Shown here piece after piece: positions 9,360 through 54,452 of a stretch of 64,000 nucleotides of DNA (position 1 is the stretch's first letter; each line of letters opens with the position of its first letter). The translations under genes were made by a program, and so were the position numbers. The notes beneath the pieces are model-generated. The model saw only the letters and a list, made by a program, of their open reading frames with translations, had not been told where the DNA came from and did not search any database. The stretch comes from Asticcacaulis sp. SL142. GTDB taxonomy: Bacteria > Pseudomonadota > Alphaproteobacteria > Caulobacterales > Caulobacteraceae. Location: the NCBI RefSeq assembly GCF_026625745.1, contig NZ_CP113061.1, forward strand, positions 2,567,501 through 2,631,500, in the 5' to 3' direction.

Positions 9360-11600
9360 ATGTTTGATATCAAAAGAAAAACAATTGACTGGGCTGGCCG
9401 TAAGCTGACCCTTGAGACCGGCCGTATCGCGCGTCAGGCAGATGCTGCGGTTCTGGCCACCTACGGGGAAACCACAGTTTTGGCCACCGTCGTGTACGCA
9501 CGCTCGCCAAAGCCGGGTCAGGATTTCTTCCCGCTGACTGTCAACTATCAGGAAAAGACCTTCGCCGCCGGCAAGATCCCCGGTGGTTATTTCAAGCGCG
9601 AAGGCCGCCCGTCTGAAAAAGAAACCCTGGTGTCGCGTCTGATCGACCGTCCGATCCGCCCGCTGTTCGTTAAGGGCTTCAAGAACGAAGTTCAGGTCGT
9701 CGTGACCGTCCTGTCGCATGACATGGAAAATGATCCGGACATTCTGGCCATGGTCGCCACGTCTGCAGCGCTTACCCTGTCGGGCGTGCCGTTCATGGGC
9801 CCGATCGGTGGTGCTCGCGTGGCCCTGATCAATGACGAATATGTTCTGAACCCGACCCTCGACCAAACCAAGGGATCCTCGCTCGACCTCGTTGTCGCAG
9901 GTACGCAAGACGCTCTGATGATGGTCGAATCCGAGGCTCAGGAACTGGGCGAAGACAAGATGCTGGGCGCGCTGATGTTCGCTCATGCCGGCATGCAGCC
10001 GGTAATCGAAGCGATCATCGAAATGGCCGAGCATGCCGCCAAGGAGCCGTTCGAGTTCGAAGCCGAAGACTTCTCAGAGGTCGTCACTCAGATCAAGGCT
10101 CTGGTCGGCAATGACATCCGCGAAGCCTATACCCATCAGGGTAAAGAGCAACGCCGCAATGCCGTCGGCGACGCCAAGAAAAAGGCCGCCGCGGCTCTCG
10201 TGAAATCCGATGAAAACCCGGACGGCGTCGATGCCGCCATCTTCGGTTCGGCTTTTAAGGAATGTGAAGCCGACGTTCTGCGTCGTGACATCATCGATCA
10301 CGGCCGCCGCGTTGATGGCCGTCCGGTCGATAAGGTTCGCCAGATCGTGTCGGAAGTCGGCATCTTGCCGCGCACCCACGGCTCGGCCCTGTTCACCCGC
10401 GGCGAAACTCAGGCACTTGTGGTCGCGACGCTGGGTACCGGCGATGATGAGCAGTTCATCGACAGCCTGGAAGGCACCTACAAAGAAAAGTTCCTTCTGC
10501 ACTATAACTTCCCTCCATACAGCGTCGGTGAAACCGGCCGTATGGGCTCGCCCGGTCGCCGCGAAATCGGTCACGGTAAGCTGGCCTGGCGGGCTATCCG
10601 TCCGATGCTGCCGTCGGCGGAAGAATTCCCGTACACCGTGCGCGTGGTCTCTGAGATCACCGAATCCAACGGCTCATCCTCGATGGCGACCGTCTGCGGT
10701 ACGTCGCTGGCGCTGATGGATGCCGGTGTGCCGCTGAAGTCGCCGGTATCGGGTATCGCCATGGGCCTGATCCTGGAAAAAGACGGCTTTGCGGTTCTGT
10801 CGGACATTCTGGGTGACGAAGATCATCTGGGCGACATGGACTTTAAGGTCGCCGGTACCGTCAACGGCATCACATCGCTGCAAATGGACATCAAGGTTCC
10901 CGGCATCACCGAGGAAATCATGACCAAGGCGCTGCGTCAGGCGAACGAAGGCCGTCTGCATATCCTGGAAGAGATGAACAAGGCCATTTCCGGCGCCCGT
11001 GAAGAGCTGGGTGAGTTTGCACCTAAGATCGAAACCATCAAGATCGCGACGGATAAGATTCGTGAAGTGATCGGCGCCGGCGGTAAGGTCATTCGTGAAA
11101 TCGTCGAAAAGACTGGCGCTAAGATCGATATTGCTGACGACGGCACCATCAAGATCTCGGCCTCTGAGCAGTCCAAGATCGACGCCGCCCGCGAGTGGGT
11201 CAAGTCGATTGCCTCTGAGCCTGAAGTCGGCGCTATCTATAACGGTAAGGTCGTGAAGGTCGTCGATTTCGGCGCATTCGTGAACTTCTTTGGTGCCAAG
11301 GACGGCCTGGTCCACGTCTCCCAGATCAAGAACGAAAAGGTCGCCACGGTTGCCGACGTTCTGAAAGAAGGCGACGAAGTCAAGGTCAAGTTCATGGGCT
11401 TTGATGATCGCGGCAAGACTAAGCTGTCGATGAAGGTCGTCGATCAGGAAACCGGCGAAGACCTGACCGAAAAGCTGGCGGCTGAACGCGCGGCCCGCAT
11501 CGAAGCCGGTGAAGAAGTGCCGTCGGAAGAACGTGCTGAGCGCTCCGACCGTGGTGATCGCGGCGACCGCCGTCCGCCGCGCCGTCCGCGCCGCGACTAG
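9360..11600 (+). CDS. pnp: Polyribonucleotide nucleotidyltransferase (PNPase)
   Basis: The enzyme is a 3'-5' phosphorolytic exoribonuclease and a core partner of the RNA degradosome. The 746-aa protein has two RNase PH-like domains (about 1-220 and 310-545, with [21 protein letters not shown] and TRGETQALV), a KH domain near 560-615 ([19 protein letters not shown]) and an S1 domain near 620-690 ([17 protein letters not shown]). The tail after about 700 is Arg/Asp-rich, ending RPPRRPRRD, as in Caulobacter-type PNPases that bind RNase E. The TAG stop abuts palindrome copy B. Confidence 0.97.
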
Positions 11601-11617
11601 CAGGGTCTAGACCCTGC
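11600..11617. repeat. Dispersed palindrome family 1, copy B, on the pnp stop codon
   Basis: GCAGGGTC (11600-11607), TA, GACCCTGC (11610-11617). The first G is the last base of the pnp TAG stop. It is followed by CACCCG, as in copies D, E and, in part, H. Confidence 0.85.
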
Positions 11618-11656
11618 ACCCGTTAGCTTGGCAAAGCCGAACGGGTAAGGATAACG

Positions 11657-11690
11657 AAAGGCGATCCCGTTGAGGGGTCGCCTTTTATTT
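11657..11690. terminator. Terminator between pnp and the convergent rhuM gene
   Basis: Stem AAAGGCGATCCC (11657-11668) with GGGGTCGCCTTT (11674-11685), one G-T pair and a 5-nt loop, followed by TTATTTTTT on the plus strand. The T tract overlaps the 3' end of the minus-strand gene. Confidence 0.88.
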
Positions 11691-12716
11691 TTTCTTCGTT
11701 TTGGGTAGTTTTTTTACTTCTTTAATTATGGAAGATATTTGTTTATCCGCTTCTCGTTGACGCTCCTCTTTTCGAATTTGTATATATTTCTCATACTGAG
11801 ATTCTGCTTTACGTTTAGCGTCAGAAGCTTTTATAGAACCACCTGTATTTAAGACGGTACGACCAAGCTGCTTTAATTGTAGGTCAAGAATGTTCTGCGC
11901 TTCTTGCATTGTCGTCAAACGACCCAAATCAAGCTGATCTTCGAATATATCAAGAAGTATGGATGTTAATCGATTTAATTCTTTTATTTCAGTTTGTGCC
12001 AAATAATTCTTTGAGACAGTAACATCTATCTTTCTAATATTTTCATGTGGCCAAGTCTGTAACCCCATATTGTCTACGCTTGAATCTGCTCTTTTTACGA
12101 TAAGTTCGGCTGGCGTAAATGATGTCACTGCATAGACCAATTTAGCTTGAGTTCTTTGATAAAACTCGCGAGCCAACTCTGTTGTTCCATCATAGTCTTG
12201 GCACATGGCGCATATCGAACGAAGCTCTCGATACAGGTTAGCTTCGTCTGAGCGAATATCGCGGATTATTTCGCGAAGCTCAGTAACCCGGTCGAAATTT
12301 TCCGGCTGTTTCAGGCGCTGTGAATCTACAACAAAGCCTTTTGTAGCGAACTGAACCAAAACGCTGGTTGCCCAACGCCGGAAAATAGTAGCTTGAGTTG
12401 ATGAGACCCGATAGCCAACGGATATAACCATATCTAGGCTGTAAAGTATGGCTGGACGACCTGTCGTTGTTTGCGTTTTTTGCAAAGAAGTCGATTCTTC
12501 CAGTTCGCCTTCATCAAGCACATTATTAATGTGCCGGGAAATTGTTGAAACATCCCTACCAAAAAGTTGGCTGATCTGGGCTTGGCTCATCCATAGCGCT
12601 TCCCCTTCATATCGGATGTCCAGTCGCAAACCTTTATCAGTTCCATAAACAAGAAATCTGTCTCCGGTATCTGCATCTTCTATGAGATGAACGGGTTCGG
12701 CGTCCTTATCTGTCAT
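11685..12716 (-). CDS. RhuM-family protein
   Basis: Predicted 343 aa. The start at 12716 (MTDKDAEPVH) is preferred over an upstream ATG because AGGTGA lies 5 nt before it. It contains the RhuM domain: LWMSQAQISQLFGRDVSTIS is a helix-turn-helix-like start, then ILYSLDMVISVGYRV and ATIFRRWATSVL are signature segments. A helical middle and a very basic coiled C-terminus (ending KKLPKTKKK) follow. RhuM is known from Salmonella pathogenicity island 3 and many mobile islands, with unclear function, and related domains occur beside restriction systems. It is AT-rich relative to pnp and lies next to palindrome copy B, which suggests recent acquisition. Confidence 0.88.
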   Translation of the reverse strand: MTDKDAEPVHLIEDADTGDRFLVYGTDKGLRLDIRYEGEALWMSQAQISQLFGRDVSTISRHINNVLDEGELEESTSLQKTQTTTGRPAILYSLDMVISVGYRVSSTQATIFRRWATSVLVQFATKGFVVDSQRLKQPENFDRVTELREIIRDIRSDEANLYRELRSICAMCQDYDGTTELAREFYQRTQAKLVYAVTSFTPAELIVKRADSSVDNMGLQTWPHENIRKIDVTVSKNYLAQTEIKELNRLTSILLDIFEDQLDLGRLTTMQEAQNILDLQLKQLGRTVLNTGGSIKASDAKRKAESQYEKYIQIRKEERQREADKQISSIIKEVKKLPKTKKK

Positions 12717-48070: not shown

Positions 48071-51626
<3,556 letters not shown>

Positions 51627-51627
<1 letters not shown>

Positions 51628-51645
51628 CAGGGGCACGGCCCCTGC
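51627..51645. repeat. Dispersed palindrome family 1, copy H
   Basis: GCAGGGGC (51627-51634), ACG, GCCCCTGC (51638-51645), followed by ACCC. The first G is the last base of the gyrB TAG stop. Compared with copies B, D and E, both arms carry the paired T-to-G and A-to-C change, so the palindrome is conserved. Confidence 0.85.
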
Positions 51646-51660
51646 ACCCAAAATCTTGGG

Positions 51661-52251
51661 TTAGCTCATCAACCTGAACCAGTCTCGTATGGTTAGTTGT
51701 AAGCGTAGGACTTCATCTTCGGCTAAAGGGCTGCAATGTGCAATCGGGGCTCTTAAAGTATTTAGGTTACCCATCACTCTTTCAACGGCCTTTTTCCCTT
51801 TAGAGAATATGCCGCCAAAAATGTCCCAATTGCTGGTGATTATGGCCGCTAACTCACCTAGTGTAGTGTAATCCAGTTCATCATCTGAGCGAGGTGTTAC
51901 GCCTGCATCTCGTTCCTTGGTAATTCGGCTCGATACTTCACCTTTAATATGAGGCGGTACACGCGGGCTTTCCCACCACTCTTCTGTTTTTTCAACTTCG
52001 GATATTGTTTCGGAAATCAATTGTCGGATTGATTTTTCGAGACAATATATGACCTCATAATGTTTGGCCATTAATGCGGCCTCTGTCCGAACCGCAGCTT
52101 CAAACTGAGGATAGTACACATCCTCTATGTTTGTTTCTGTAGTCGAGATATGGCCTAATTTTATCGCGTATAAACTCTCTACAGAATTTAAATCATCATT
52201 TATTATGTGGTTTCCCATAATAAATGATTTAATCTTGTGCTCGGCATCCAT
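51661..52251 (-). CDS. Swt1-type HEPN domain protein, second gene of a two-gene module
   Basis: A 196-aa AT-rich gene. The C-terminal half matches the pattern of the Swt1-family HEPN domain: CLEKSIRQLISETISE, WWESPRVPPHIKGEV, TTLGELAAIITSNWDIFG and NTLRAPIAHCSPLAEDE. The R-x4-H catalytic motif of HEPN ribonucleases is Arg167 to His172. It starts immediately after the TAA of the DUF5343 gene (TAA-ATG), so the two are translationally coupled. HEPN proteins of this kind are often RNA-cutting effectors in defence or toxin-antitoxin pairs; this role is inference. The pair lies between gyrB and lpd. Confidence 0.85.
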   Translation of the reverse strand: MDAEHKIKSFIMGNHIINDDLNSVESLYAIKLGHISTTETNIEDVYYPQFEAAVRTEAALMAKHYEVIYCLEKSIRQLISETISEVEKTEEWWESPRVPPHIKGEVSSRITKERDAGVTPRSDDELDYTTLGELAAIITSNWDIFGGIFSKGKKAVERVMGNLNTLRAPIAHCSPLAEDEVLRLQLTIRDWFRLMS

Positions 52252-52878
52252 TTATTCAACCTTTAATAGATTTTCGCGCAGGCTTTTGAATATCGCGTTA
52301 AAAACTGATTGGTCACTTGTGGCCGGAAGGTTTAAGTTTATTGTATAAGATAGGTTTAGTCCAACCGTTTTTTCTTGTTTAAATTCTTTGGTTTCATTGT
52401 AATTTATCGGCAAAACGGGAATTTCTTGTTCCAATTCTTCTGATTCTTCAGCATCAAAAGTTGCCATACTTTTCAAATTTTGAAGGGTGGAAAATATAAG
52501 GCTAACTACTTTATTATCTTTATCTAGGCCAGATACTTGTATGATGAGATTTTTCAATTCATGATCTTTTAGATCATAAAAGTATTCATTAGCTGATGAA
52601 AGCGCTGAATAACCATTTTTGATGCCTTTTGCTAAGGCTGATCCTCCAGATGATTTATTGCGAAATTGTTTATATAAATCAGTCGGCACTCCATCTGCAG
52701 ATACAAAGCCGATCTTTTTTAAAAATGGTATGATTGCTTTCCCAGTTCCGCCCTTAATTAAGATTTTTGTGGAGATGAAATCTATATTAACTCTCTCTGG
52801 CACACTGGCATTTCTTATGCGCTCTAAAGCAGTTTTGATTGAGCCTGGTGATACTAGATAAGGTAAGTTTTCAGCCAT
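52252..52878 (-). CDS. DUF5343 protein, first gene of a two-gene module with HEPN
   Basis: A 208-aa AT-rich gene. Residues about 1-145 fit DUF5343: LPYLVSPGSIKTALERI, the helix-turn pattern around GTGKAIIPFLKKIGFVSADG, then PTDLYKQFRN and EYFYDLKDHELKNLIIQVSG, suggesting winged-helix-like nucleic-acid or protein binding. Residues about 146-208 form a separate tail (VGLNLSYTINLNLPATSD, VFNAIFKSLRENLL) that may contact a partner. GGGG lies upstream of the ATG. It is transcribed with and directly coupled to the HEPN gene downstream. A sensor or antitoxin role is possible, not shown. Confidence 0.83.
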   Translation of the reverse strand: MAENLPYLVSPGSIKTALERIRNASVPERVNIDFISTKILIKGGTGKAIIPFLKKIGFVSADGVPTDLYKQFRNKSSGGSALAKGIKNGYSALSSANEYFYDLKDHELKNLIIQVSGLDKDNKVVSLIFSTLQNLKSMATFDAEESEELEQEIPVLPINYNETKEFKQEKTVGLNLSYTINLNLPATSDQSVFNAIFKSLRENLLKVE

Positions 52879-52950
52879 AATAGCCCCGATACATTATGAG
52901 TTGTATTTAGAGGCTATGATAAATTCACGATTCTTTGAAGTGATTTGTTC

Positions 52951-52984
52951 AAAACAAAAAGCCTCAGCATTGCTGCCGAGGCTT
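52951..52984 (-). terminator. lpd terminator
   Basis: On the minus strand a stem-loop AAGCCTC.../GAGGCTT (52959-52965 with 52978-52984, plus inner GCA/TGC) is followed by TTTTTGTTTT. It ends the suc-lpd operon. Confidence 0.9.
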
Positions 52985-52998
52985 AAAGCTAATTGAAC

Positions 52999-53039
52999 CA
53001 CTCAAAAGTACACTGAGCGTAGCGAAGGACTTTTGAGTG
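52999..53039. repeat. Inverted repeat after lpd
   Basis: CACTCAAAAGT (52999-53009) and ACTTTTGAGTG (53029-53039) with a loop containing CTGAGCGTAGCGAAGG. It lies 6 bp from the lpd TAG stop. Its central GAGCGTAGCGAAG string also occurs in the 33106-33256 element. Confidence 0.78.
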
Positions 53040-53045
53040 AGGCCA

Positions 53046-54452
53046 CTAGGCCTGCATCGTCCAGCCTTCGACGCCCATAGCCGCCTGCTTAACGGCCTCA
53101 GAGCGGGTCGGGTGCGGATGGCAGGTGCGGGCCAGATCTTCGGACGCGCCGCCAAAGGCCATCAGCACGCACGCTTCGCCGATCATTTCCCCGGCTTGCG
53201 GCCCAAGGATATGCACGCCGTACACCTTATCGGTCTTGGCATCGGCCAGGAACTTCACGAAGCCGTCGGTCTCATGGTTGATCTTGGCGCGGCTGTTGGC
53301 CATGAACGGGAACTTGCCGGTTTTGTACTGCACACCCGCGGCCTTAAGCTGGTCTTCGGTTTTGCCGACCCACGCCACTTCGGGGAAGGTGTAGACGACC
53401 GACGGCACCAGATCATAATCGACGTGACCGGCCTTACCGGCGATCAGTTCGATAACGGCGACGGCGTCTTCTTCGGCCTTGTGAGCCAGCATCGGGCCGT
53501 GGATCACGTCACCGATGGCCCACACGCCGGGGGCCGAGGTCTTGAAATGATCGGTGGCGATAAAGCCGCGCGCATCGGGCGTGATGCCAACCGTATCAAG
53601 GCCCAGACCATTGGTGAACGGGCGACGGCCGATAGCGACCAGAACCACATCGGCTTCCAGGGTTTCGGCATTGCCACCGGCGGCGGCCTCTAAGGTCAGG
53701 TTGACACCGGACTTACCGGTCTTGGCCGAGGTGACCTTGGTGCCGAGCTTAAAGGCAAAGCCCTGCTTGGTCAGGATTTTCTGGAACTGGGTGGCGACTT
53801 CGGTGTCCATGCCCGGCGTGATGCGGTCGAGGAACTCAACCACGGTCACCTTGGCGCCCAGACGACGCCAGACCGAGCCAAGCTCAAGGCCGATGATGCC
53901 AGCACCAACGACGACGAGGTGCTTAGGGACCGCCGGCAGCGACAGGGCGCCGGTGGAATCGACAATCTGCTTTTGGTCAACCGTGACACCCGGCAGCGGC
54001 GTTGGCTCAGAGCCGGTGGCGATGACGATGTGCTTGGTGGTCAGTTGCTCGACCTTACCGTCAGCGGCGGTGACCGAAACCTTACCGGCCCCTTCGATCT
54101 TACCGAAGCCGACGAAATAGGTGACCTTGTTCTTTTTCATCAGGAATTCGACACCCTTGGTCAGGGCGTTGACGCTGTCCTGTTTGGCCTTCATCATCTG
54201 GATGAGGTTGAGCTTGGGCGCGGGGACTTCGATGCCGATATGGGCAAATTCACCGGAGGCGGCTTCGAACAGTTCCGAGGCGTGCAGCAGAGCTTTTGAC
54301 GGCATACAGCCGACGTTCAGGCAGGTGCCGCCCAGTACGCCGCGCGATTCCACGATCGCCGCTTTCAGGCCCAGTTGTCCGGCGCGCACCGCCGCATTGT
54401 AGCCGCCGGGGCCACCGCCGATGATGACTACGTCAAAGTTCGTGTCCGCCAT
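53046..54452 (-). CDS. lpdA: Dihydrolipoyl dehydrogenase (E3)
   Basis: A FAD enzyme that reoxidises the lipoyl arms of 2-oxoglutarate and related dehydrogenases. The 468-aa protein has the FAD site FDVVIIGGGPGGYNAAVRA, the redox disulfide GGTCLNVGCMPSK (Cys44, Cys49), a NAD site VVVGAGIIGLELGSV and the C-terminal catalytic HPHPTRSEAV. It ends the sucCDAB operon. Length is standard. Confidence 0.97.
   Translation of the reverse strand: MADTNFDVVIIGGGPGGYNAAVRAGQLGLKAAIVESRGVLGGTCLNVGCMPSKALLHASELFEAASGEFAHIGIEVPAPKLNLIQMMKAKQDSVNALTKGVEFLMKKNKVTYFVGFGKIEGAGKVSVTAADGKVEQLTTKHIVIATGSEPTPLPGVTVDQKQIVDSTGALSLPAVPKHLVVVGAGIIGLELGSVWRRLGAKVTVVEFLDRITPGMDTEVATQFQKILTKQGFAFKLGTKVTSAKTGKSGVNLTLEAAAGGNAETLEADVVLVAIGRRPFTNGLGLDTVGITPDARGFIATDHFKTSAPGVWAIGDVIHGPMLAHKAEEDAVAVIELIAGKAGHVDYDLVPSVVYTFPEVAWVGKTEDQLKAAGVQYKTGKFPFMANSRAKINHETDGFVKFLADAKTDKVYGVHILGPQAGEMIGEACVLMAFGGASEDLARTCHPHPTRSEAVKQAAMGVEGWTMQA

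Follow-up and report, generated by a model that had tools for sequence, protein, structure and literature searches.

Between what we take, from their protein sequences, to be gyrB (49186-51627, plus strand) and lpd (53046-54452, minus strand), two names for which no family search was made, a 64,000-nucleotide stretch of the Asticcacaulis sp. SL142 genome (contig NZ_CP113061.1, positions 2,567,501 to 2,631,500; the window) carries two short genes of unusual base composition. The question that this locus raises is what such a pair might do. The upstream gene (52878-52252, minus strand) encodes a DUF5343 protein of 208 amino acids (PF17278, E 9.4e-44, residues 6-145), and the downstream gene (52251-51661, minus strand) a protein of 196 amino acids that belongs to the Swt1-like HEPN family (PF18731 HEPN_Swt1, E 9.5e-12, residues 68-196; 45.7 bits against a curated cut-off of 27.5). 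The DUF5343 stop codon TAA (52254-52252) directly abuts the HEPN start codon ATG (52251-52249). In 500-base windows, the GC content is 0.34-0.41 over most of the pair versus approximately 0.55-0.64 in the flanks. The two genes, their place, their TAA/ATG junction and their character of an AT-rich insertion had been described in an earlier note made from the sequence alone, with which coordinates, sequence, gene positions and GC windows agree. As a mobile two-gene module that links a probable DNA sensor to a probable RNA-cutting enzyme, the pair has the appearance of a switch for phage defence or self-arrest. That it is a self-contained, horizontally moving module of the abortive-infection type, in which a sensor controls a HEPN ribonuclease (RNase), has in our estimate an even chance of being correct.

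Exactly this pair is already listed as PADLOC candidate PDC-M34A/B. Both proteins match the PADLOC-DB models over nearly their full length (DUF5343 as PDC-M34A, PDLC04589, E 2e-42, residues 1-204 of 208; HEPN as PDC-M34B, PDLC04592, E 3.5e-35, residues 2-194 of 196), and the genes are adjacent and co-directional, as PDC-M34 demands. PDC-M34 is, however, a database candidate only: the available part of PMC11811056 describes the PDC-x models as unpublished candidate systems and gives no mechanism for them there. A full-text search, with most subscription papers and all of bioRxiv outside its scope, returned no paper naming DUF5343 or PDC-M34, none naming HEPN_Swt1 or PF18731, and no report of anti-phage activity of PDC-M34. 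In the literature searched, the term "Swt1 family HEPN" was found only in a survey of HEPN proteins, from the main text of which DUF5343 is absent (PMC3710099); nor is DUF5343 among the five newly implicated DUFs in the part of PMC13092281 that was available. The earlier note knew of no characterised system with exactly these two parts; as a candidate, however, the pair already had a name in PADLOC. New are the co-occurrence, the predicted two-helix-turn-helix (two-HTH) core fold, the exchange of partners, the occurrence on phage contigs and the variable insertion site. Each of the two families is matched by more than 3000 protein clusters; for the pair, which lacks a studied function in the literature searched, the proposal would offer a role open to testing.

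Among 398 genomes of the phylum, DUF5343 was found above the cut-off in 10. Six genomes match a profile made for this branch of HEPN proteins, and in all six DUF5343 lies directly upstream; a search for such co-occurrence had been proposed in the earlier note. The Fisher p value of 4e-11 is too small, since these genomes are related and not phylogenetically independent. Adjacency exceeds chance, because many other genomes have both genes in this arrangement: DUF5343 comes first and HEPN second wherever both occur, be it in loci from protein searches, in relatives or in the phylum sample. Among the relatives, 3 of 61 (own genome included) have DUF5343. With start codons assigned by script, the junction measures -14 to +4 nucleotides in 32 of the 32 placeable pairs outside the window, 27 of them overlapping (L075 and L076 duplicate L003 and L002; L012, with its HEPN frame shifted near the start, is excluded). 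The first step of the proposed mechanism is this two-gene unit, the products of which are probably made together, as the starts overlap or abut. The distance matrices of the DUF5343 core and HEPN correlate at 0.91, those of the tail and HEPN at 0.75 and those of core and tail at 0.70; 0 of 2000 permutations reached any of these values.

Two small, coupled, co-directional genes are also the layout of type II toxin-antitoxin systems. The main rival explanation is a classical system of this kind, with DUF5343 as DNA-binding autorepressor and antitoxin and HEPN as growth-arresting RNase; it would stabilise mobile DNA or arrest growth under stress, without specific phage sensing. We regard this as rather unlikely, roughly a one-in-four matter. 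A coupled unit on low-GC DNA with the putative antitoxin first would suit it, as would locus L018, in which an IS3-like element (10624-12015) follows the first HEPN residues and interrupts that frame, with the DUF5343 frame still open. The loci without an open HEPN frame are L018 and L082-L084, the latter three having another partner gene. The reverse arrangement, which would not suit an antitoxin if HEPN is expressed there, is probably present in Rhizobacter: pieces of DUF5343, probably two halves of one gene of one genome, stand at two contig ends (L019 and L023), and HEPN is open on the second contig.

What the HEPN protein would contribute to a sensor-controlled module is suggested by its family and by the motif R-x4-H. 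Arg167 and His172 (RAPIAH, 51736-51753), the predicted active site, had been pointed out in the earlier note; they agree with the R-x4-6-H pattern of Swt1-like HEPN proteins, are invariant in a 21-row alignment (A2) and are retained in every one of 31 aligned pairs, of which 30 come from other loci and one from the window. That set omits the repeats L002 and L003 as well as L012, L023 and L028, which are frameshifted or cut, and includes L029 and L030, which are near-copies. The protein is thus a putative RNase.

For the DUF5343 protein, the predicted model has a core of eight helices (residues 1-145; 52444-52878), a linker predicted to be disordered (residues 146-171; 52366-52443) and a tail, here called tail I (residues 172-208; 52255-52365), consisting of a strand-like stretch, a proline and a helix at 190-205. 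A helical core with a separate tail is in line with the winged-helix-like pattern and C-terminal tail read earlier from the sequence. The core is predicted to adopt a two-HTH fold with BrxA, SspB and BpuJI as best matches, at modest scores, which lends some weight to the idea that DUF5343 binds nucleic acids. Foldseek gave no match at E<=0.001 for either predicted model, and among solved structures none was a convincing relative by sequence. No column of the linker is at least 95 % identical among the 31 pairs; tail I is the most densely conserved part of the protein and is proposed to be a partner-docking adaptor. Many antitoxins likewise combine an HTH-type core, a disordered linker and a short tail, a likeness that again speaks for a toxin-antitoxin system. 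Against it, the core is a full domain of 145 amino acids, and the top VIA rows for it are restriction and defence DNA readers, which rank before small repressors. In a separate observation, residues 93-208 matched positions 676-789 of the 1165-position PADLOC model PDC-M60A (E 2.9e-4), which may mean that this C-terminal portion also occurs in a larger protein.

Related tails occur beside other partners. A tail-I profile run over the 398 genomes found, besides the six with DUF5343 and HEPN, a single match of 11 residues (E 0.004); as the profile includes tails from all six, the search is circular for its matches, and its informative part is that no other genome matched, bar the 11-residue one. 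Three genomes (G388, G094 and G262) have DUF5343 without Swt1-HEPN. Their tail differs yet has a similar strand-helix make-up (type II), and DUF5343 is followed by a gene for a protein of 170-171 amino acids with weak DUF4145 similarity, below the cut-off (E 2.1e-3 for L082 and 3.5e-4 for L084; L083 is near-identical to L082 by eye). A type-II profile, partly circular because it includes three of the four genomes matched, found these three and G349, in which a DUF5343-like gene is followed by an IS3-type-looking element. In L095, an IS3-like element (1672-2909) stands directly 3' of a DUF5343-like gene, the frame of which is open; that these elements and the one in L018 are of the IS3 type is our assumption. 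In 198 genomes of one family, four more tail-I proteins with Swt1-HEPN were found (L096-L099), together with a third tail type with a Ymh partner (L101), a type-II-like tail with a Ymh partner (L102, DUF5343 below the cut-off) and a DUF5343 protein without a tail, with no recognised HEPN in its locus of about 3.4 kb (L100). Both Ymh partners score above the Pfam and NCBIfam cut-offs, and Ymh and DUF4145 are classed as HEPN families in the available part of the HEPN survey (PMC3710099). No further DUF5343 came from 32 genomes of one order, sampled in addition.

Taken over the samples of 398 and 198, 16 genomes have DUF5343 above the cut-off: 10 with tail I and Swt1-HEPN, 3 with tail II and the DUF4145-like gene, 1 with the third tail and Ymh, 1 with neither, and 1 counted as a weak fragment (L042 in G249, just above the cut-off and matched over 53 positions). 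The count excludes L043 and L103, which do not reach the cut-off. Only tail I is one-to-one here, because the type-II-like tail sits beside two kinds of partner. Matches to the PDC-M34A model extend to DUF5343 proteins that adjoin a different HEPN-like gene. In a protein-database search with the tail, which was limited to proteins between 0.55 and 1.75 times the query length, all but two of the 120 listed of 3575 matches bear the DUF5343 label, the two exceptions being proteins of 114 and 122 amino acids with no Pfam label. Since related tails adjoin other HEPN-type genes, DUF5343 appears to be a sensor whose RNase partner can be swapped. It is plausible, at somewhat less than an even chance, that DUF5343 serves generally as a BrxA-like sensor of nucleic acids, the strand-helix tail of which takes Swt1-type, Ymh/PF09509 or DUF4145-like HEPN proteins, tail I being specific for Swt1. 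Such a tail-partner rule predicts which DUF5343 pairs with which HEPN type. By eye, the tail-less DUF5343 of L100 (1153-1956) shares a C-terminal motif, HPFIxGLLxTLP...LIYKG, with a protein of L042 (193-1125) that has no DUF5343 match; this motif is perhaps another adaptor.

The pair also has traits of a movable element. Its GC content is below that of the rest of the locus in 28 of 29 loci (exception, L020), and the gyrB-lpd gap of the window (51649-52993) is a variable insertion site. Among 25 genomes of the genus (own included), gyrB and lpd are close together in four others, all with inserts of 766-1184 bp that differ from the pair, as judged by their open reading frames (ORFs); the GC content of three of these inserts is 0.41-0.44 and that of one 0.54, and Pfam, at E<=0.01, matched none of five proteins encoded by them. 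In the other 20 genomes, the two genes lie tens of kilobases apart or on separate contigs. The HEPN profile further found nine loci on viral contigs, eight with DUF5343 directly upstream and one cut at the contig end. Genes for a terminase large subunit and a primase (L029), a major head protein (L028) and a replication initiation protein (L026) lie 2-6 kb from such pairs; two L031 proteins and one of the two L027 proteins tested had no PHROG match, in a part of the analysis that scanned 77 of 111 ORFs. Plasmid and phage records searched at E<=1e-5 contained no DUF5343 and a single HEPN match of 30 % identity, and this near-absence from plasmids counts against a toxin-antitoxin role.

In the proposed defence module, the predicted BrxA/SspB-like core of DUF5343 would sense foreign or altered DNA, and the flexible linker and conserved strand-helix tail would restrain HEPN and relay the signal, DUF5343 possibly serving as a platform for exchangeable HEPN effectors. 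HEPN, once released or dimerised, would then cut cellular or phage RNA, and growth and phage production would stop. Two results weigh against this scheme, both from checks that the earlier note had proposed. An AlphaFold2 model of the joined DUF5343 and HEPN sequences showed no confident tail-HEPN contact and so gave no support to docking of the tail. Defence-island context was likewise not borne out by the neighbours of 29 loci (proteins under 900 amino acids, viral-contig loci included): 140 proteins match 122 PADLOC families, each with two members at most, a rate like that of 41 control genes of the window, which match 33 families. PADLOC counts are a poor yardstick, because such ordinary genes also match. 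Pfam assigned the neighbours to 97 families; most of the 25 listed have housekeeping roles, but OLD/GajA-type ATPases, tyrosine integrases and resolvases are also present, two of each. Housekeeping surroundings would fit a regulatory pair of the host or of a phage with a role outside defence, namely to process or sense certain RNAs, an explanation to which we give little credence: the patchy presence, low GC content and phage carriage described above point to an accessory element rather than a core-gene regulator.

Compared with known systems, the DUF5343 protein is not a sequence member of the BrxA family (DUF1819), as Pfam at E<=1 gives DUF5343 alone, and the pair is flanked by gyrB and lpd, with no BREX genes. 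Unlike BrxA, SspB and the BpuJI recognition domain, the DUF5343 protein has an RNase-type partner; if the proposal is true, a DNA-reading sensor with the fold of the BREX and Ssp systems is wired to an RNA-cutting effector. In contrast to AbiF/AbiD, Csm6 and Swt1-like HEPN proteins, the proposed sensor is a separate protein, and Pfam found no CARF domain in the two proteins. A two-gene module with a HEPN protein is shared with the HEPN-MNT (type VII) toxin-antitoxin systems, in which the partner is a nucleotidyltransferase instead of DUF5343. In an AbiF-like arrangement, HEPN would bind a small non-coding RNA, and DUF5343 would bind RNA rather than DNA. This is improbable: no Rfam family scored above its gathering score in 51500-53200, and 17 upstream stretches of 120 nucleotides, judged by eye and not scored, have no common block.

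As to expression of the pair, a weak sigma-70-like promoter match (9 of 12 positions; 52893-52922) was found just 5' of DUF5343, and a terminator-like stem-loop 3' of lpd (52959-52984) may keep transcription of lpd from running on into the pair; both are on the minus strand. Together, they suggest a transcription unit of its own, with counts in the region barely above those of shuffled controls (four promoter-like matches against a mean of 3.2; three stem-loops against 2.0). An imperfect inverted repeat seen by eye, ATCATAGCC...GGCTATTAT (52877-52920), spans the promoter-like match and the start codon and is a possible operator. Another inverted-repeat element, CACTCAAAAGT...ACTTTTGAGTG (52999-53039), stands beside the insertion site, and similar pieces occur elsewhere in the genome and in relatives.
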